Made by a program: the position numbers and the translations under genes
Assembly (NCBI RefSeq): GCF_000379725.1
Contig: NZ_KB903664.1
Location: forward strand, 124,154 to 188,153
DNA: 64,000 bases
Reading direction: 5' to 3'
Origin: Cytophaga aurantiaca DSM 3654
GTDB taxonomy: Bacteria > Bacteroidota > Bacteroidia > Cytophagales > Cytophagaceae
Notes under the pieces: model-generated
Seen by the model: only the letters and a program-made list of their open reading frames with translations
What the model was told of the DNA's origin: nothing
The model's database searches: none
In this document: positions 1,164-9,448 of the stretch, one piece after another
Layout of the letters: the number at the start of each line of letters is the position of its first letter
Position numbering within the stretch: the stretch's first letter is position 1

Positions 1164-1856
1164 ATGAGTTCCATACGCTTAGCAGGAATGATCATATGGT
1201 CTATTCTGTGCATTACCTCTTCTATACTTGTTCGCTTTCTTACCTTTTCTACACATCTGGGTGTTGCTATGGCGCGTACGATGTGGGCACCTGTAATCTT
1301 ATGGTTAGCTGGTATTAAGTTAACGGTGAAAGGACTTGAAAATATTCCTACAGATAAGCAATCGTATATTGTGGTTGCCAATCATCAATCCGTGATTGAT
1401 ATTCCCATTTTGTTTTACACCCTTCCGTTCAATGTATATTTTGTAGCGAAAAAAGAAATAGCAAAAGTTCCTTTTATCGGCTGGTACATGTATGCAATGG
1501 GTATGATCTTTATCGACCGCGGCAGTCGTGATAAAGCCATGCAGAGTATGATCAACGCAGGTTCATTAATTCGGAATGGCAAAAGCGTAATGACCTTCCC
1601 GGAAGGTACACGTTCATTAGATGAAAAGATGGGTGTGTTTAAGGCGGGTACGTTTGTAATGGCTGAAAAAGCTGGTGTACCTATACTTCCTGTTAAGATC
1701 ACTGGTGCAGGCAAGATCTGGCCAAGCGGAAGCTTTACCATCAAGGGCGGACCTGTTACGGTGTCGTTTGGTGAGCCGATCTCAACTGCAGGTTTGAATG
1801 ATCAGACACGGGCTGCGTTTATTGAAGAGGTGAAGGGCAGAGTAGAGGCATTGTAA
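1164..1856 (+). CDS. plsC: 1-acyl-sn-glycerol-3-phosphate acyltransferase (PlsC family)
   Basis: A 230-residue protein with the PlsC/LPLAT signatures: NHQSVID (NHx4D catalytic motif, residues 73-79) and FPEGTR (residues 145-150, acceptor binding), plus a hydrophobic N-terminus (about residues 8-30) that would anchor it to the inner membrane. Family role: acylation of lysophosphatidic acid to phosphatidic acid in phospholipid synthesis. Length is typical for bacterial PlsC. It stands alone after the trhO terminator, and a two-hairpin repeat begins about 95 bases downstream. The same motifs occur in other LPLAT enzymes (for example ornithine lipid acyltransferases), so the exact acceptor is inferred. 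Confidence 0.88.
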   Translation: MSSIRLAGMIIWSILCITSSILVRFLTFSTHLGVAMARTMWAPVILWLAGIKLTVKGLENIPTDKQSYIVVANHQSVIDIPILFYTLPFNVYFVAKKEIAKVPFIGWYMYAMGMIFIDRGSRDKAMQSMINAGSLIRNGKSVMTFPEGTRSLDEKMGVFKAGTFVMAEKAGVPILPVKITGAGKIWPSGSFTIKGGPVTVSFGEPISTAGLNDQTRAAFIEEVKGRVEAL

Positions 1857-2183
1857 GAGGCATAAGGCTGGTTGTTTCCTAGCCACTGCTCAACCCGTTG
1901 TTGTACCAACGGCCAACAACCCACAAAATTTTTTAGGAGATGGTCAATAGAGGCTGTTGTTGGTGTTTCTGCCTGAGTAAATGATATGATAGAGGTAGCG
2001 CGTTTGCGCAGACCACCAACAACTATGGGCAGATTAACTTTTGAGAGCAGCAGGTTGTTGGTAGCCCGCGTTGTTTTTAGTTCATTAAATAAACACCAGA
2101 GCTGGCGGGAATACCAACAACAGCGAAGGAGAAAAATCAATGTTTATAGTTAGAGAATTCTTTAGGCACAAGAGCAGTGAAAT
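1857..2183. other. Gene-free stretch holding a two-hairpin repeat and a palindromic remnant
   Basis: No convincing coding frame. Bases 1866-1950 contain GTTGTTG/CCAACAAC half-palindromes resembling pieces of the 171-172 bp repeat and may be a degenerate partial copy. Bases 1953-2124 are a full copy. A minus-strand frame through here is only a by-product of the repeat. Confidence 0.6.
1953..2124 (+). repeat. Two-hairpin REP/MITE-like repeat, copy A
   Basis: A 172 bp unit. It starts GCTGTTGTTGGTGTTTCTGCC and ends with the near inverse, giving imperfect 21 bp terminal inverted repeats. Internally it folds into two adjacent hairpins: GTTGTTGGTG pairs with CACCAACAAC in the left half, with a GCGC-GTTT-GCGC stem inside, and GTTGTTGGTA pairs with TACCAACAAC in the right half. 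It shares almost all of its sequence with the copies at 3877-4047, 4610-4780 and 4823-4993. The centre is more diverged than in the others (CTATGGGCAGATTAAC in place of the shared ATAAGTATGTAAC segment). Confidence 0.9.
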
Positions 2184-2246
2184 TTGCTTTTGCTATCCGA
2201 ATCAGATACATTTAGTTCACAACAAAACAGCAGCAATGCTACTTTT

Positions 2247-2657
2247 ATGAAAGTATTCTTCGCCTTTGCACTTAGCGCCGGTATTCTTACAAGCTTTGTA
2301 AACTATAATTCATCGTCCTTTCCGGATATTTACGTTAAGGCTATTGCCGTTAAAGACACTGTTGCAGTTGGAGAAACCTACAAAGCCAAATTGTTTATCG
2401 TAAATGGAAAAGAATTGGGTGGCACTACACCACCTGTAATGTATTACATGTACGACTGTTGCTATAATATTTTTGCTGATGGCAAGAAAGCAATCGTAAA
2501 AAACGATACCGCTTATGTAGAGTTTATCGTACCGGATTATAAATCGAAAAAGAAATTAAGTATAGAGCACTGGGGCGCAAGAGTTACTCAACAAACAAAG
2601 AATGGAAGCGATACAACCTTTTTAATGAATTTCGCTTATGCTGCAATCAGGAAATAA
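2247..2657 (+). CDS. Hypothetical secreted or membrane-anchored protein
   Basis: The frame is open from 2184, but the ATG at 2247 starts a typical signal/anchor sequence (MKVFFAFALSAGILTSF), so that start is preferred, giving about 136 residues. The rest looks like a beta-rich extracytoplasmic domain (DTVAVGETYKAKLFIVN is a bacterial Ig-like strand pattern), including a CC pair in MYDCCYN. No family recognised. The neighbouring repeat ends at 2124, close upstream of the frame, so the longer N-terminus reads through sequence next to that insertion and is probably not native. Confidence 0.55.
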   Translation: MKVFFAFALSAGILTSFVNYNSSSFPDIYVKAIAVKDTVAVGETYKAKLFIVNGKELGGTTPPVMYYMYDCCYNIFADGKKAIVKNDTAYVEFIVPDYKSKKKLSIEHWGARVTQQTKNGSDTTFLMNFAYAAIRK

Positions 2658-2713
2658 AAACATGTAGCAAGCAATAACTATTTTATAATACAAAAATTAA
2701 TTAATCAATCTTT

Positions 2714-3781
2714 ATGTCAAACCGATTTATATTGAAATTGTTTTTTTGTCTGATTTCTTTTTTAAGTATACATCTTGTTCACGCAGGTAAAAAAGAAAAT
2801 ACGTTAAAACTGATCAATACTATAACTGAATTACCTATACTGAAGTGGGGTGATGAAAGTGAATTCATACACGGATTTTATATTCCTATCCGGGAATATT
2901 CCGAAGTAGGAAATATTTCTGTCGTTGAATTGCGTACACCGCAGCGCGAGATCATGTATCGTTGTGAAGTAACAAGCAATGAAGATGCTATGCCTGTAGA
3001 AATACTTGTTTATACTTCTGTTAAGACAAGCAATTATACAGGTGTAGATAACGGAACCTATGAAGTGAAACCCTGCATGCGCATTAAAATATCGTATGAG
3101 GTCACCGGTAAAATGAAAACCATTTCGTATAAAAATATTGTATGGGGTGAAGATGCTACGGCTGAAGAAATTGCTTTGGACTATTTGCCAAACGGAATGA
3201 TCTGGCGTGTGTATCATACAAAGTCCAGCGATTATGGTCCTGTATTTGAGGCATACTATGCCAATGGACATGCAGATAGTATTACCATTGGTGTACTGGG
3301 AATAGCAGGGAAGGTGGTTCCTTTTGCTATCCGAAGATCTGTATATGATGCAAAATGGAATGTCATCAGACATACGTTGCGTTATGTAGATGATACCTAT
3401 TTTGAAACAGACCTGATTCTATATGCAGCAGATGGTAAAGTACAGGAATGGTATAAAAGAAAATATGCTACGGAAGGTTCTACCAAAGAAGTATCCGGAT
3501 ATGTATTTACGTATGAAAATTCAAAAGTAATTAAAGCGAATTATTACTTTGATTATGTTTCTGATCAAACAGGAAAGCTTGAAGATGTTAAAAATCTGGG
3601 GCGTTTAAAGAAAGAATTCTATTATACGTATTCAGCGAACGGCAATTTACTCAGTTACAAAGATGCTCTTATAACCGATTGTGTGATTGCAGACAGAACA
3701 ACAACCTATACGCTGGATGCGAAGGGGATGGTACTGAAGCAAACGACGGTTGATAAGACGAAGTATAAGTGTAAGTACTAA
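2714..3781 (+). CDS. Hypothetical secreted protein
   Basis: 355 residues beginning with a signal peptide (about residues 1-24, ending HLVHAG). The C-terminal half is rich in Tyr/Lys beta-strand patterns (YYTYSANGNLLSYKD, YTLDAKGMVLKQ) resembling the short Y-x-x-x-G-x-L strands of YD/MORN-like secreted proteins, but no domain is firmly recognised. It follows the previous gene by 56 bases in the same direction and could be co-expressed. The function is unknown. Confidence 0.7.
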   Translation: MSNRFILKLFFCLISFLSIHLVHAGKKENTLKLINTITELPILKWGDESEFIHGFYIPIREYSEVGNISVVELRTPQREIMYRCEVTSNEDAMPVEILVYTSVKTSNYTGVDNGTYEVKPCMRIKISYEVTGKMKTISYKNIVWGEDATAEEIALDYLPNGMIWRVYHTKSSDYGPVFEAYYANGHADSITIGVLGIAGKVVPFAIRRSVYDAKWNVIRHTLRYVDDTYFETDLILYAADGKVQEWYKRKYATEGSTKEVSGYVFTYENSKVIKANYYFDYVSDQTGKLEDVKNLGRLKKEFYYTYSANGNLLSYKDALITDCVIADRTTTYTLDAKGMVLKQTTVDKTKYKCKY

Positions 3782-4091
3782 TTTGCTATGTTTATTAAAT
3801 GCAGTCAGAGATTGCCGAATGATGGACACCAGTCAACGCTTCGCTAAGAATGCGCCAGGTGAATGGTTGGGTAGAGGCTGTTGTTGGTGTTTCTGCCTGA
3901 GTAAATGATATGGTAGAGGTAGCGCGTTTGCGCAGACCACCAACAACCATAAGTATGTAACTATTAACGAGCAGTGGTTGTTGGTAACCCGCGTTGTTTC
4001 CAGTTCATTAAATAAACACCAGAGCTGGCGGGAATACCAACAACAGCATCATTAGATACATTTTTAACAATAATTTTTTGTTTGAATAGGT
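3782..4091. other. Gene-free stretch holding repeat copy B and the transposase leader
   Basis: About 95 bases without recognisable content, then the two-hairpin repeat (3877-4047), then a 44-base AT-rich leader (ACAATAATTTTTTGTTTGAATAGGT) to the transposase start at 4092. Nothing else is seen. Confidence 0.6.
3877..4047 (+). repeat. Two-hairpin REP/MITE-like repeat, copy B
   Basis: A 171 bp unit nearly identical to copies C and D, with the same terminal inverted repeats and two-hairpin fold. It lies 44 bases upstream of the transposase gene. It shares the five bases TAGAG immediately before its left end with copy A. Confidence 0.93.
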
Positions 4092-4607
4092 ATGGAAAAA
4101 ATAATTTATCATCCCGAATTTGTTACTGCAACTATAGTAAATTGGTATCCACTGTTGAAGCAGCGTTCATACAAAAAGATAATTTTAGAAAGTCTTCAAT
4201 ATTTAGTGAAGAAAAATAAGATTATCGTATATGCTTATTGTATTATGGATAATCATATTCATCTAATATGGCAGATTAAAGGTGAACAGTTGCAGTCAGA
4301 TGTTCGTCGAGATTTTTTTAAATTTACTGCAAAAAAGATAAAAGAGGATTTAGAAAAATACAATCCTGAAGTGCTATCTTATTTTAAATCGACTCAAGCA
4401 GACAGGGAATATCATTTTTGGGAACGAAATCCTGAGTGTAAGGAATTGTTTACGGATGATTTTTTTGAACAGAAATTCAACTATATTCACAATAATCCAG
4501 TTGACGCAGATATATGTGAATTGGAAGAACATTATGAATATTCTAGTGCGAAATTTTATTTGACAGGAGAAGATAAGTTGGGCTTACTAACGCATTATCG
4601 GCGCTAA
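4092..4607 (+). CDS. REP-associated tyrosine transposase (IS200-like Y1 HUH nuclease, RAYT)
   Basis: 171 residues with the HUH motif H55-I-H57 in MDNHIHLIW and the catalytic tyrosine Y131 in FNYIHNNPV, the pattern of the RAYT branch of the Y1 transposases. Family role: single-strand DNA cleavage and joining at palindromic hairpins; RAYTs are linked to the spread of REP/BIME sequences. The gene sits between copies of a palindromic repeat: copy B ends 44 bases upstream and copy C begins 2 bases after the stop codon. That arrangement strongly suggests the repeat is its substrate. The length is near full for a compact RAYT and no frameshift is visible, so it may be active. Base composition is more AT-rich than the neighbouring genes. 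Confidence 0.9.
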   Translation: MEKIIYHPEFVTATIVNWYPLLKQRSYKKIILESLQYLVKKNKIIVYAYCIMDNHIHLIWQIKGEQLQSDVRRDFFKFTAKKIKEDLEKYNPEVLSYFKSTQADREYHFWERNPECKELFTDDFFEQKFNYIHNNPVDADICELEEHYEYSSAKFYLTGEDKLGLLTHYRR

Positions 4608-4609
4608 TG

Positions 4610-4780
4610 GCTGTTGTTGGTGTTTCTGCGTGAACAAATGATATGATAGAAGTAGCGCGTTTGCGCAGACCACCAACAACATAAGTATGTAACTATTAAC
4701 GAGCAGTGGGTTGTTGGTAGCCCGCGTTGTTCTCAGCTCATTAAATAAACACCAGAGCTGGCGGGAATACCAACAACAGC
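4610..4780 (+). repeat. Two-hairpin REP/MITE-like repeat, copy C
   Basis: A 171 bp unit that begins 2 bases after the transposase stop codon (TAA at 4605-4607). It has the same terminal inverted repeats and paired hairpins as the other copies. It forms the first half of a tandem duplication with a period of 213 bp. Confidence 0.93.
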
Positions 4781-4783
4781 GCA

Positions 4784-4993
4784 AGATAAGTTGGGCTTAC
4801 TAACGCATTATCAGAGCTGATGGCTGTTGTTGGTGTTTCTGCCTGAGCAAATGATATGATAGAGGTAGCGCGTTTGCGCAGACCACCAACAACATAAGTA
4901 TGTAACTATTAACGAGCAGTGGGTTGTTGGTAGCCCGCGTTGTTCTCAGCTCATTAAATAAACACCAGAGCTGGCGGGAATACCAACAACAGC
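4784..4993 (+). repeat. Two-hairpin repeat copy D plus duplicated 3' tail of the transposase gene
   Basis: Bases 4784-4822 repeat the last bases of the transposase gene (AGATAAGTTGGGCTTACTAA onward, original at 4571) with a few substitutions, followed by a full repeat unit at 4823-4993. The block is a tandem copy, offset by exactly 213 bp, of 4571-4780. Confidence 0.92.
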
Positions 4994-5039
4994 GAAAAAT
5001 CTCCGAAACAACAACATTGATGTAAACGTATTAAAATTC

Positions 5040-6293
5040 ATGCGATATCTTTTAATCTCTATTCTTTCAATCTTAACAATTCTTATTCTGTGGATCAACA
5101 TTGGTTTGCATACACCCGATGATACAAGGGCAGAACAAAAGGAGGATATATTGAAGCAATTGCATTTTTTAGAATCCGAATTAAAAGAGAATAATTTGGG
5201 TGAACGCATGCAGCAGATTTTTCCCGAAGGATATGTTTTTATTCATGCGCTTTATGGATTGAGCTGGTGTGAACTTGCATTGGCAGATTCATCACAAAAT
5301 AAAACGATAAAAGATAAAGCGATCAAAGAAGCCTTGTATGCATTTGATCAGATTGATTCTGAAAAGGGACGTTCTACTTTTCAGATAGAACTTATTCCTG
5401 AAAATGGTATTTTTTATTGCGGATGGAAAAATTATCTGTTGTCTAAAATCCTGCAGGTAGATACCACATTCAAAGGACATAAATTCTATGAAGTTCAATT
5501 TAAACAGCAGAGTAAAGAGATTGCAGAAGCTATCAAGTTAAGTAAGACACCATATTTAGAATCGTATAGTGGACATGCATGGCCGGCAGATATGTTTGTA
5601 GCGATGGCCTCTTTGAGTAATTACGAGAAAGTATATACTCCAGCATTTCAATCCGATATACAATCCTGGTTGGTTAAGGTGAAAGGAAAATTAGATCCGG
5701 TAACACATCTTATTCCGCATAAAGTATATCCTGAAACAGGCGCTCTCATTGAAGGACCGAGAGGCAGTTCTCTGGGCCTGAGTTTACGTTTCCTGGCGGA
5801 GATTGATCCTGCATTTGGAAAAGAGCAATTTGCGTTGGACCGCATGCATTTTATTACCACCAAATTCGGACTGCCTGCAGTGCGCGAGTATCCGAAAGGC
5901 AATTATAATTTAGGTGATGTAGATTCCGGTCCGGTTATTTTTGGTGTAGGTTTTTCTGCTACCATTGTGATGATCGGTACCATGTCTATGTACGATCACG
6001 CTACTTTAGCAAACCAGCAATACACAACGATTCATGCCTTTGGTTTTGAAACAGGAAATGATGAAGAGAAAAAATATTTATTCGGAACACTGCCGATGGG
6101 TGATGCATTCATTGCCTGGGGTAGAGCAACAGATCTGCATTACAGTTTATACCAGCCGTATATTTCTTCAAAGAACTGGCGACTGCAGTTTCATTTGATT
6201 TCTTTAGCGGTGCTGGTGGTTTTGTGGATACCGGTGTATTGGAGGAGTATAAAAAAGATATTTACGAAGTCGCAGTCAAAGACTGCCCAATAA
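5040..6293 (+). CDS. Hypothetical membrane protein with an alpha/alpha-barrel-like periplasmic domain
   Basis: 417 residues. Hydrophobic segments lie at both ends (about 3-22 and 382-402, the latter followed by basic residues), so a large soluble middle would sit outside the inner membrane. The middle has a helix-rich character with conserved-looking motifs (YSGHAWPADMFVAMAS, GPRGSSLGLSLRFLAE, DVDSGPVIFGVGFSATI) reminiscent of (alpha/alpha)6-barrel proteins of the linalool dehydratase-isomerase or glycosidase-like type. This resemblance is by eye only. No operon partner is evident; the repeat array lies upstream and the immunity-like gene 61 bases downstream. Confidence 0.7.
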   Translation: MRYLLISILSILTILILWINIGLHTPDDTRAEQKEDILKQLHFLESELKENNLGERMQQIFPEGYVFIHALYGLSWCELALADSSQNKTIKDKAIKEALYAFDQIDSEKGRSTFQIELIPENGIFYCGWKNYLLSKILQVDTTFKGHKFYEVQFKQQSKEIAEAIKLSKTPYLESYSGHAWPADMFVAMASLSNYEKVYTPAFQSDIQSWLVKVKGKLDPVTHLIPHKVYPETGALIEGPRGSSLGLSLRFLAEIDPAFGKEQFALDRMHFITTKFGLPAVREYPKGNYNLGDVDSGPVIFGVGFSATIVMIGTMSMYDHATLANQQYTTIHAFGFETGNDEEKKYLFGTLPMGDAFIAWGRATDLHYSLYQPYISSKNWRLQFHLISLAVLVVLWIPVYWRSIKKIFTKSQSKTAQ

Positions 6294-6354
6294 TAGACGC
6301 CAGTGGTACAATAATGAAACTTTAGAAATGAATATTTAAATAAGATTTTCAACT

Positions 6355-6594
6355 ATGATGTCCAGAGAAGAATTAATTGAATTGGGACGGAAAATTGTGA
6401 ATTGCGAGGGGACAGAAGAAGAGATAGATTCTATGTATGATTTATTTAATAAGAATGTTCCACATCCGAACGGTGCTAATTTATTCTATTATCCAGAAAA
6501 TTTTAATGCGCGTAAAGATGATCTATCAAAATACAATCCTTTAATTGAAGAAGTTGTTGATCAGGCATTAAATTATAAACCAATTCAGCTTTAA
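6355..6594 (+). CDS. Colicin/pyocin (E-type) immunity-like protein
   Basis: 79 residues. The pattern HPNGANLFYYP (residues 37-47) matches the hallmark HPxGxxLxYYP of the Im2/Im7/Im9 family, which binds DNase colicins; the upstream acidic helix (EGTEEEIDSMYDLF) and length also fit that four-helix fold. Family role: cytoplasmic inhibition of a cognate nuclease bacteriocin. No DNase or other toxin gene is visible nearby, so this is either an orphan immunity gene or a domesticated relative. ATG codons occur at 6355 and 6358; either could be used. A strong terminator follows. Confidence 0.72.
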   Translation: MMSREELIELGRKIVNCEGTEEEIDSMYDLFNKNVPHPNGANLFYYPENFNARKDDLSKYNPLIEEVVDQALNYKPIQL

Positions 6595-6614
6595 TCAGTT
6601 GCTCTTAAAATAAC

Positions 6615-6643
6615 AAAGCCCGCGATCACTCGCAGGCTTTTCT
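6615..6643 (+). terminator. Terminator after the immunity-like gene
   Basis: AAAGCC-C-GCGA / TCGC-A-GGCTTT hairpin with a TCAC loop and a short T-run, 20 bases after the stop. Confidence 0.8.
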
Positions 6644-6647
6644 ATTT

Positions 6648-6761
6648 GTCTGAATTTGGATTTATTGGATTAGAAGATTAATTGGATTATTTACCCGTAT
6701 TCAGATTATTGATTTTAGAAATTCTGCCTTTCAGAATAATCCAATAAATCCAAATTCAGAC
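6648..6761. repeat. Perfect 25 bp inverted repeats enclosing 64 bases
   Basis: The arms 6648-6672 and 6737-6761 are exact inverse complements (starting GTCTGAATTTGGATTTATTG). The right arm ends 4 bases before the metG stop codon on the other strand. The element could be a small MITE-like insertion or a long bidirectional terminator stem. Confidence 0.85.
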
Positions 6762-6765
6762 AATA

Positions 6766-8835
6766 TCAACCAATCATACTACCCGCATTAACAACACCAT
6801 CTGGTTGCACAAACTTCAACGAACCATCTGCATCTTCCGCCATTAAGATCATACCTTGTGATACGATGCCTTTGATCTCACGCGGAGCAAGGTTGGCAAG
6901 TAAAGATACTTGTTGTCCGATTATTTTTTCAGGATCGAAGTGTTCTGCGATTCCGCTTACTACCGTACGTTCGTCGATGCCCGTTTTAAGTGTAAGCTTT
7001 AATAGTTTTTTTGTCTTTGCAACTTTCTCTGCTGCAATAATTGTTGCTACACGGATATCCATTTTTGCGAAGTCGTCGAAGGAAACATTTTCTTTCAATG
7101 GTTTTACTTCAGCGTTGGCAAGCAAGTTCGCCTGTTTGGTGTCCTCCAGTTTTTTAACCTGTGCTTCAATTGTTGCATCTTCTATTTTGTCAAACAACAA
7201 CTCGGCCGTGCCTAACTGATCGCCTGCTTTTAACAAGTCAATTGTACCAGCATTGTTCCAGGTGTTTGCTTTTAAGTTTAACATCGTAAATAATTTCGCC
7301 GATGTAAACGGAATGAACGGTTCAGAAACAATGGCTAGGTTTGCTGCAATCTGTAAGCCGATGTGTAAAATGGTTTTTACACGCTCCGGATTTTCTTTGT
7401 AGATCTTCCAAGGCTCCGTATCCGCTAAATATTTATTTCCCAAACGTGCAAGGTCCATCATGAAACCAAGTGCTTCACGGAAACGGTACTGCTCAATAGA
7501 TGCAGCAATCTTACCCGGAAATTCTTTTAACATCATGATCACGCCTTCGTCTGAAGCTTCAAGCTTACCTAAAGCCGGGATCACACCTTCGTAATATTTA
7601 TGTGTCAACACCAATGCACGGTTTACAAAGTTTCCGTAGATAGCTACAAGCTCATTGTTGTTGCGTGCCTGAAAATCTCTCCAGGTAAAATCATTGTCTT
7701 TTGTTTCCGGCGCATTCGCACACAATGCATAACGCAACACGTCCTGCTTGCCTTGAAATTCTTCCAAATATTCATGCAACCAAACAGCCCAGTTACGTGA
7801 CGTAGAAATTTTATCGCCTTCAAGATTCATGAACTCGTTTGCAGGTACGTTGTCGGGAAGAATATAACTTCCTTCCGCCTTCAACATAGCAGGGAAGATG
7901 ATGCAGTGAAATACGATATTATCTTTACCGATAAAGTGTACCAGCTTGGTATCGTCTTTCTTCCAGAAGTCTTCCCAGGTATTCGATTTATGAATTGCTT
8001 TGATCGCAGAATTCTTAAAGTAATCTTTTGCTGCCGAGATGTAACCGATCGGTGCATCAAACCAAACGTACAGAACTTTTCCTTCCGCACCGGCAACGGG
8101 TACAGGTACACCCCAGTCTAAATCACGTGTTACGGCACGGGGCTGCAAGCCTTGATCCAGCCACGATTTACACTGACCGTATACATTGGTCTTCCAGTTT
8201 TTATGATCTTCTAAGATCCATTGTTTCAACCACGGCTCGTATTGATCCAAAGGTAAAAACCAATGTTTCGTTGATTTCATTACCGGCTTCTCGCCACTTA
8301 GTGTAGAGCGCGGATTAATAAGCTCCGAAGGACTTAATGTTGAACCGCATTTCTCACACTGATCTCCATAGGCGTTTTCGTTTCCGCATTTCGGACAGGT
8401 ACCAATGATGTATCTATCTGCTAAGAATTGTTCAGCCTTTGGATCGTAATATTGTTCGCTGGTTTGCTCGATGAATTTTCCATCTTCATACAACTTCTTA
8501 AAATACTCCGAAGAAGTTTCCGCATGAATTTTTGAAGACGTTCTGGAATAGATATCAAATGAGATCCCCAATTCTTCAAACGATTGTTTTATCTGAACGT
8601 GGTATTTATCTACGATCTGTTGTGGTGTAACGCCTTCTTTTTTTGCACGGATGGTAATAGGCACCCCATGTTCGTCTGAACCGCCGATAAACAATACATT
8701 TTCTCCTTTCGAACGTAAAAAACGCGCATAAATATCCGCAGGCACGTAAACACCTGCCAAATGGCCGATGTGAACCGGTCCGTTGGCATACGGCAGGGCA
8801 GAGGTAATTGTATATCTAGTAGGTTTGTTCGTCAT
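6766..8835 (-). CDS. metG: Methionyl-tRNA synthetase with C-terminal tRNA-binding domain
   Basis: 689 residues from the ATG at 8833-8835 ([20 protein letters not shown]); the frame extends 28 codons upstream, but that stretch encodes no MetRS sequence. Class I signature HIGH is at residues 22-25, a KISTS form of the KMSKS loop follows DKISTSRN in the second half of the catalytic domain, and a zinc knuckle lies at C147/C150/C160/C163. The last ~110 residues form a Trbp111/EMAP-like tRNA-binding OB fold ([16 protein letters not shown]), present in long MetRS forms. Role: charging of tRNA-Met in the cytoplasm. The gene is divergent from bipA across a palindrome-rich spacer. Confidence 0.97.
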
Positions 8836-9448
8836 ATATGTAAAGTAATGAACTGCAAATATAAGAAATAAGGCTGGTACTGTAAATCTAGGGGCGATAC
8901 CCCTAGCTAAAATATGCAAGGCTTTCAGCCTTAAAGGATTCTATAAACATTTAATGCGTTGTACCTTAACTTTATAACACACAAATAAGGCTGAAAGCCT
9001 TTCATATCCAAACTTGGGGCATCGCCCCAAGTTGAATAAGGAAGAAGACTAACTCTTGGGGCGATGCCCCAAGTTTTGCTATTACAGCCTTTCAGGCTGA
9101 GTGCTCTAACATTTACTTGATGTACTGGTTAGAGCACTTTTCAGGCTGAAAGCCTGACATATTTTAACTTGGGGCATCGCCCCAAGAATTTCAAGGCTGA
9201 ACGCTTTTGCGTTTTGCATAGTTCAGAGCAGAGCTTATTAAAAACTTACCCGATTCATATTACTTTTTCATTAATTTTCAAAAGGCTTCAAAACCTTCAT
9301 TTTAGCTTAAAAATAGCATTTTTAGACTTCTACTTTCAGCTTTTGGCCCTAAGCATGATGCATTTTTCCTTCTTTTTCAAAGCTTTAAGCATTACGCTTT
9401 TCGCTTTAAGCTTTTTTCCGTACTTTTGCACCTTATAAAATTCAATTT
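8836..9448. repeat. Array of short palindromes between metG and bipA
   Basis: No gene is seen in this 613-base divergent spacer. It holds at least eight perfect or near-perfect palindromes: CTAGGGG/CCCCTAG (8888-8906), AAGGCT/AGCCTT (8918-8932, 8987-9001), CTTGGGG/GCCCCAAG types (9011-9033, 9055-9073, 9166-9186), CAGCCT/AGGCTG (9085-9099), and a 10 bp stem GTGCTCTAAC/GTTAGAGCAC (9101-9110 with 9128-9137). Two motif families alternate. The distal 200 bases are AT-rich and lead to the bipA promoter. An 89-codon frame at 9169-9438 runs through this array and is not credible. Confidence 0.85.
9421..9428 (+). promoter_or_regulatory. Bacteroidetes -7 box of the bipA promoter
   Basis: TACTTTTG matches TAnnTTTG exactly, 20 bases before the bipA start. 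The same box followed by CA precedes both tRNA-Lys genes in this window. No exact TTTG -33 box is seen. Confidence 0.65.

Follow-up and report, generated by a model that had tools for sequence, protein, structure and literature searches.

According to the parts of Quentin et al. 2018 (PMC6006769) available to us, subclass 2.6 of the TnpA-REP proteins corresponds to RAYT group 5 of Bertels 2017 and is found mostly in Bacteroidetes, with the motifs NH[LIV]H and YIH[QN]NP and a C-terminal SS. As described there, genes of this subclass are bordered by atypical secondary structures that recur at other places in the genome, and the GT[AG]G consensus is absent. REPINs, in the accessible part of their description (Bertels and Rainey 2011, PMC3116915), are inverted doublets of hairpin units built from short REPs, which are dispersed, extragenic and linked to a RAYT. 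As far as the available text of Corneloup et al. 2021 (PMC8266576) goes, the E. coli REPtron has a foot-plus-hairpin layout, with an essential GTAG foot and cleavage at C|T beside the REPs. TIRYT/TIRtron systems (PMC3733652, available in part) consist of tyrosine transposases which are flanked by long inverted repeats and are able to form small repeat families.

Here we refer to the analysed 64,000-nucleotide stretch of Cytophaga aurantiaca DSM 3654 as the window (G000:C44:124154-188153, in the 4.42-Mb genome G000 of 46 contigs). The locus that we describe in it is probably a REPtron, that is, an HUH/Y1 REP-associated tyrosine transposase with an unusually large, non-autonomous REPIN-like doublet as its cognate element. 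Matched by motifs and by description, it appears closest to subclass 2.6 (Bertels group 5), and since the available parts of PMC6006769 already describe that subclass with atypical repeats copied elsewhere in the genome, we regard it as a new, better-resolved member. Among the papers listed by full-text literature searches, none was recognised as describing the 171-bp repeat, which may be listed in Table S1 of PMC6006769. The features of the locus are as follows.

1953-2124, plus strand: copy A of the two-hairpin element, 172 bp (covariance model, 199.4 bits)
3877-4047, plus strand: copy B of the two-hairpin element, 171 bp, 44 bp upstream of the RAYT ATG (188.5 bits)
4092-4607, plus strand: RAYT/TnpA-REP gene, 171 aa, uninterrupted ORF
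4563-4988, plus strand: 213-bp tandem duplication with units 4563-4775 and 4776-4988 (96%; D1 family)
4610-4780, plus strand: copy C of the two-hairpin element, 171 bp, 2 bp past the RAYT stop (191.6 bits)
4823-4993, plus strand: copy D of the two-hairpin element, 171 bp, arisen by the tandem duplication of the RAYT tail and copy C (195.4 bits)
4826-4893: hairpin 1 of copy D, its unit read on the minus strand (5'-3'); the outer stem is GTTGTTGGTG and the inner stem TCTGC
4914-4922, plus strand: foot GAGCAGTGG, candidate guide, 5' of hairpin 2 in copy D
4923-4990: hairpin 2 of copy D, its unit read on the plus strand (5'-3'); the outer stem is GTTGTTGGTA and the inner stem CCCGC

The RAYT and its locus

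The HUH motif of the window RAYT is HIH at residues 55-57 (H55 and H57), lying within NHIH; a YIHNNP motif holds Y131, presumably the catalytic residue, and YSSA is found at the C-terminus. The sequence-only reading had proposed a transposase gene at 4092-4607 with HUH and catalytic Tyr motifs, and we could verify its coordinates, the residues H55, H57 and Y131, and the uninterrupted frame. All three motifs agree with those given for subclass 2.6 in the accessible parts of PMC6006769. On the other hand, the conserved W110 is followed by E, which gives W-E where the subclass has W-Q, so that its WQ motif was not found here, and the HUH-Tyr spacing is 74-76 residues as against a median of 82 reported there. 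In the alignment of the window RAYT with 27 relatives, M52, H55, H57, W110, Y131, N135 and P136 were invariant in 28 of the 28 proteins.

Pfam Y1_Tnp matched the protein with 24.1 bits, above its cut-off of 23. The best NCBIfam match was REP_Tyr_transpos (E 4.5e-19), which at 68.8 bits failed its curated cut-off of 80, and the IS200/IS605 model NF033573 also failed, with 15.9 bits against a cut-off of 55. A profile of the window RAYT and the 27 relatives had E. coli TnpA-REP 4er8 as its first match (1.7e-7), with IS200/IS605-type transposases next. A Foldseek search with the AlphaFold model (pLDDT 81, pTM 0.80) also placed 4er8 on top (E 7.9e-7, TM 0.64/0.67, rmsd 7.5), so that the E. coli protein comes out as the nearest solved structure in both comparisons. 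Judged from its motifs and predicted fold, the window protein is a RAYT/TnpA-REP relative, with HUH and Tyr motifs in what would be a Y1 transposase fold.

When the PDB was searched with the single sequence, T-cell receptor chains were returned with E 0.28 and worse; these chance-like matches were discarded.

The RAYT gene is flanked on both sides by its own repeats, with B upstream and C-D downstream. The spacings read from the sequence, with copy B ending 44 bases before the gene and copy C starting 2 after its stop, were reproduced, and the fourth copy, A, was found where it had been reported. Copies A-D are 88-98% identical to each other (mean 92.7%). All four copies of 171-172 bp proposed earlier are real, but C and D are not independent of each other, as they belong to the 213-bp tandem duplication, which includes the final ~45 bp of the RAYT gene. 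Since 42 of the 48 positions in 4776-4823 are identical to the RAYT tail at 4563-4610, copy D is no independent insertion; it arose by duplication and not by transposition.

The neighbours of the locus are presumably plsC (1164-1856) and metG (6766-8919), named by recognition of their sequences. Both genes flank it in all three genomes compared, namely G000 and the congeners G001 (4.0 Mb, 190 contigs) and G002 (one contig, 4,433,218 bases). In G002 the plsC-metG gap measures 464 bp and contains two incomplete copies of the repeat, scoring 59.1 and 26.6 bits. In G001 it measures about 2.2 kb and contains a full copy (127.6 bits) as well as a weak partial match (12.5 bits); no RAYT was found at plsC-metG in either congener. 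Because both congeners also carry the repeat, complete or in part, in this gap, this one site fits the picture that the sequence-only reading had named as speaking against it, that of copies kept in a conserved intergenic region with no empty sites in relatives. On the simplest reading, the repeat at plsC-metG predates the species split, and the RAYT block with three further ORFs (2184-2657, 2714-3781 and 5040-6293) is special to G000, or was lost from the congeners. At E <= 0.001, no DNA match to these three ORFs was seen among the scored candidates of G001 (40 of 142) and G002 (40 of 71), and none of the three had a Pfam match over its cut-off.

The cluster A-D could also go back to segmental duplication and to recombination between the repeats of a single intergenic region, without transposition. 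This is favoured by the occupied gaps of G001 and G002, by the tandem origin of C and D and by the last five flanking bases, which are common to A and B, but it leaves unexplained the dispersed copies that lie on other contigs with unrelated flanks (see below). We consider such an origin of the cluster possible, though rather on the unlikely side; local duplication is true for D and possible for A-C.

Other repeats were observed in and beside this gap. Sequences of families flanking other RAYTs lie near copies A and B, at 1875-1935, 3789-3862 and 6272-6305; assigned by reading and by DNA matches, they are of the type found around the RAYTs on contigs C2 and C24, and of the GCAGTC..GACTGC / GGCGCCAG type of the C3 pseudogene, G002:526366 and G001:C183. 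Between the RAYT block and metG there is a perfect 27-bp inverted repeat (6646-6672 / 6737-6763, 64 bp apart), and sequence like it occurs at several places in G001. Beside metG, at 8881-9193, an inverted-repeat cluster (AGGCTGAAAGCCT..CTTGGGGCATCGCCCCAAG) has many matches in both congeners. An Rfam scan of 1500-6800 at E <= 0.1 left the two-hairpin repeat unmatched and returned two leader matches at 6547-6778, both under their gathering scores.

Structure of the two-hairpin repeat

We aligned the 14 full-length G000 copies, each of 165-172 bp, over 172 columns. The consensus shows the same two hairpins as copy D, with 10-bp outer stems, a small asymmetric bulge and 5-bp inner stems. Folded as single-stranded DNA, the hairpins of copy D gave z of -4.95 and -5.74 relative to shuffles, and 0 of 200 shuffles were as good. 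Standard pairs fill 97.9% of the 419 pair cells of the alignment, and shifting the pair partners by 1-3 columns cuts pairing to 25-64%. In this alignment, from which the structure was itself derived and in which inherited change is counted more than once, double changes were found in 5 of 30 pairs (15 cells; shuffles 4.4 +/- 1.4, with 0 of 500 as high), while a second covariation measure, the further pair types, pointed the opposite way (7 vs 10.4 in shuffles). Across the copies, 16 of the 30 pairs never vary, and the mean p-distance is four times less in stems (0.083) than in unpaired columns (0.332).

The terminal GC, though unpaired, is invariant at both outer ends where present (one copy is without its 3' end), with the copy ends trimmed where similarity stopped, which favours finding shared ends. 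The base inward of it varies (p-distance 0.275 in columns 3 and 170), so that the T of GC|T is not fixed. On the 5' side of hairpin 2, ten columns (92-101, with a consensus ending in GAGCAGTGG) have a p-distance of 0.330, as against 0.567 in the remaining linker. GT[AG]G stands immediately 5' of the hairpin-2 stem in 3 of the 14 copies (C, D and C44_241167), and in copy B it does so only with a one-base register shift; the repeat falls short of a canonical REP foot. Such a foot was not expected here because subclass 2.6 is without the GT[AG]G consensus in the available parts of PMC6006769. Whereas the GTAG foot is essential in the E. coli REPtron according to the accessible text of PMC8266576, the foot here is GAGCAGTGG-like and variable, within the same foot-plus-hairpin layout.

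The two halves of copy D align to each other in inverted orientation with a score of 15.0 (500 shuffles: mean 4.2, maximum 12.5), much of which is accounted for by the shared stem, and the element carries the terminal inverted repeat GCTGTTGTTGGT/ACCAACAACAGC. A two-hairpin repeat with terminal inverted repeats, as first read from the sequence, is present, with hairpins that beat shuffles. There is no need to place it between a REP pair and a MITE, as the earlier description did; a REPIN-like inverted hairpin doublet fits better, and no target-site duplication was seen by eye. By alignment, the dispersed unit is to be read as an inverted doublet of homologous hairpin units, like the REPINs of PMC3116915 as partly available to us, from which it differs in its units of about 70-80 nt in place of short REPs and in its 14 full copies. 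Compared with what is accessible on subclass 2.6, the present locus resolves the repeat into a 171-bp inverted doublet. Flanking inverted repeats that form small families are also a point of likeness to TIRYT/TIRtron; the repeat here is a two-hairpin doublet, and the GGGGWSAS motif given in the available part of PMC3733652 was not noticed in it by visual comparison.

Dispersed copies and empty sites

With the covariance model at E <= 0.1, and with 150 of about 1,800-2,100 first-look candidates scored per genome, we identified at least 25 non-redundant sites in G000 (150 of 2111 candidates, strands merged), at least 31 in G001 and at least 11 in G002. The G000 sites comprise 14 full-length copies, each of at least 150 bits, and 11 partial or degenerate ones. 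The partial site C45:13835 has the same left flank as C45:14361 across an assembly gap, and the two may be one copy counted twice. In a DNA search of 59 genomes including G000, the repeat was found in 3, namely G000 and both congeners. Other genomic copies of the 171 bp unit, which the sequence-only reading had called for, thus exist, and they occupy varied sites, as it had also proposed. The copy flanks are unrelated, except for the C-D duplication and the five last bases that A has in common with B; by eye, the 12-nt flanks of the 14 flank pairs showed no target-site duplication or common target. By mechanical ORF calls (>= 80 aa), 9 of the 14 full copies lie in tandem gaps, 4 in convergent gaps and 1 in a divergent gap; three of them overlap such calls (A, 112 aa; the C21 copy, 80 aa; the C45 copy, 226 aa through a gap of Ns). 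The ten dispersed full copies have a mean mutual identity of 72.9% (range 65-83%).

Five of these ten (C44:238584, C44:241167, C35:242066, C42:22399 and C24:119203), whose flanks were found in G002 and G001, were tested for empty sites. In G002 the syntenic interval lacks the repeat in all five cases, and the eight syntenic stretches from G002 and G001 (L189-L196) had no covariance-model match to the repeat at E <= 1. Between aligned flanks, clean and simple intervals were seen only at C44:241167 (235 bp in G000 vs 59 in G002) and C35:242066 (344 vs 107). The intervals of C44:238584 (282 vs 207), C42:22399 (512 vs 243) and C24:119203 (1502 vs 185) are rearranged, with a length change of more or less than one repeat, and the left flank of C42:22399 is a tandem gene pair. 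In G001 both flanks were found for 4 of the 5 copies, the left gene at C44:241167 being mostly missing. At C44:241167 the intergenic flanks are too diverged to be aligned up to the exact insertion junction. Empty sites in relatives were thus obtained for 5 of the 5 tested dispersed copies in G002, but not at the plsC-metG gap, which is occupied in both congeners. For the tested copies, loss from both congeners is a possible alternative to gain in G000.

It is also conceivable that the RAYT was domesticated for a host function and that the repeats are immobile, being relics or functional hairpins (transcript ends or DNA-binding sites) with stems under selection at each site. Several observations point this way: the dispersed copies are divergent, as their mean identity indicates, their stems are kept while the loops drift, and the 14 full copies compare with 37 to 427 perfect REP copies per genome in the accessible part of PMC2817692. 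In addition, G001 keeps many copies (at least 31 sites) with no close RAYT, the best being 38% in a fragmented assembly. However, the repeat is missing at the five tested syntenic sites, the invariant unpaired ends would suit a mobilisation substrate better than a terminator, and convergent gaps hold only 4 of the 14 full copies by ORF calls. We regard domestication as rather unlikely.

A few G001 repeat matches lie at contig starts (C107, C134 and C113), and because of such matches a RAYT in G001 was possibly missed. The congener RAYT most like that of the window is in G002 (62%). No amplification of a repeat by this G002 RAYT was detected, its upstream repeat having 3 matches in G002, of which one is the query and two are of 27-28 nt, and diverged copies could escape such a search.

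RAYT-repeat pairing and a candidate mechanism

We compared 17 RAYT loci, taken from the same genome, from the congeners and from the best-scoring matches, which make neither a random nor a complete sample. A repeat common to the upstream and downstream 450 bp (E <= 1e-3) was found at 16 of the 17, whereas the same flank test on 44 other window genes gave 3; the single unflanked RAYT locus is cut by a contig end. The best flank match is inverted in 12 of the 16, and several repeat families are involved. Within the sample, L027 is a pseudogene, the best score of L058 comes from a 49-bp direct repeat, and a repeat family is held in common by L157, L158 and L027, by L055 and L056, and by L011 and L012. 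A repeat common to both flanks is usual for the examined RAYT loci. The layout of a RAYT with its repeat, as proposed from sequence alone, has thus gained support from the protein family, the dispersed copies, the five absent sites and the flanked loci.

Two other RAYT genes of G000 look damaged, one at C3:65394-65882 with internal stops and one at C24:133957-134427 with an apparent frameshift near the C-terminus.

The paralogous RAYTs on C2 and C24 are flanked by repeats whose foot and outer stem are similar in sequence to those of the window repeat. Three of four C2/C24 units fold as a shorter hairpin, and the fourth weakly beats shuffles (z -1.76). This second family has 13 matches in G000, 6 in G001, 1 in G002, 5 in G003 and 0 in G004. 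Were the window repeat instead a MITE of a DDE-type insertion sequence, with an accidental RAYT association, its terminal inverted repeat GCTGTTGTTGGT/ACCAACAACAGC and its MITE-like length of 165-172 bp would be expected; yet each end is itself a hairpin, no target duplication was seen by eye, two-sided repeats are found at 16 of 17 RAYT loci as against 3 of 44 controls, and the repeats of paralogous RAYTs have the same foot and outer stem sequence. This explanation is very improbable.

For the REPtron, we propose the following course. The substrate would be the doublet of two long hairpins in inverted orientation, with feet inward and an invariant GC at the outer ends. The RAYT would bind a hairpin in exposed single-stranded DNA and choose the cleavage site through the foot sequence of that hairpin, and Tyr131 would cut near the terminal GC|T, which fits the cleavage at C|T beside REPs given for E. 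coli in the available text of PMC8266576. Strand transfer would then move or copy the doublet into other intergenic sites. Mobility of the element is likely on this evidence, with the window RAYT, or a recent ancestor, as the putative mover; binding, the guide role of the foot and the cleavage position are predicted by analogy.

A more specific version can be offered only tentatively. Perhaps the 171-bp double hairpin is mobilised with the GAGCAGTGG-type foot, a relaxed GT[AG]G, as guide and with cuts at the terminal GC|T, the doublet being an internal-deletion offspring of a REPtron, and RAYT and repeat having co-diverged into cognate pairs within one genome. An internal-deletion origin is suggested because the doublet has the layout of [repeat-RAYT-inverted repeat], as around C2, minus the gene in the linker; it is rated lower because the C2/C24 units mostly fold as shorter hairpins.

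With this locus, a RAYT near subclass 2.6 gains a defined candidate substrate: its two hairpins have conserved stems, its ends are fixed, a guide can be proposed for it, and both dispersed copies and empty sites are on record. Specificity can be tested directly with the paralogous RAYTs that G000 also encodes, whose repeats are related to this one yet distinct. If the RAYT does act on the repeat, REPIN biology would extend to large hairpins in Bacteroidota.
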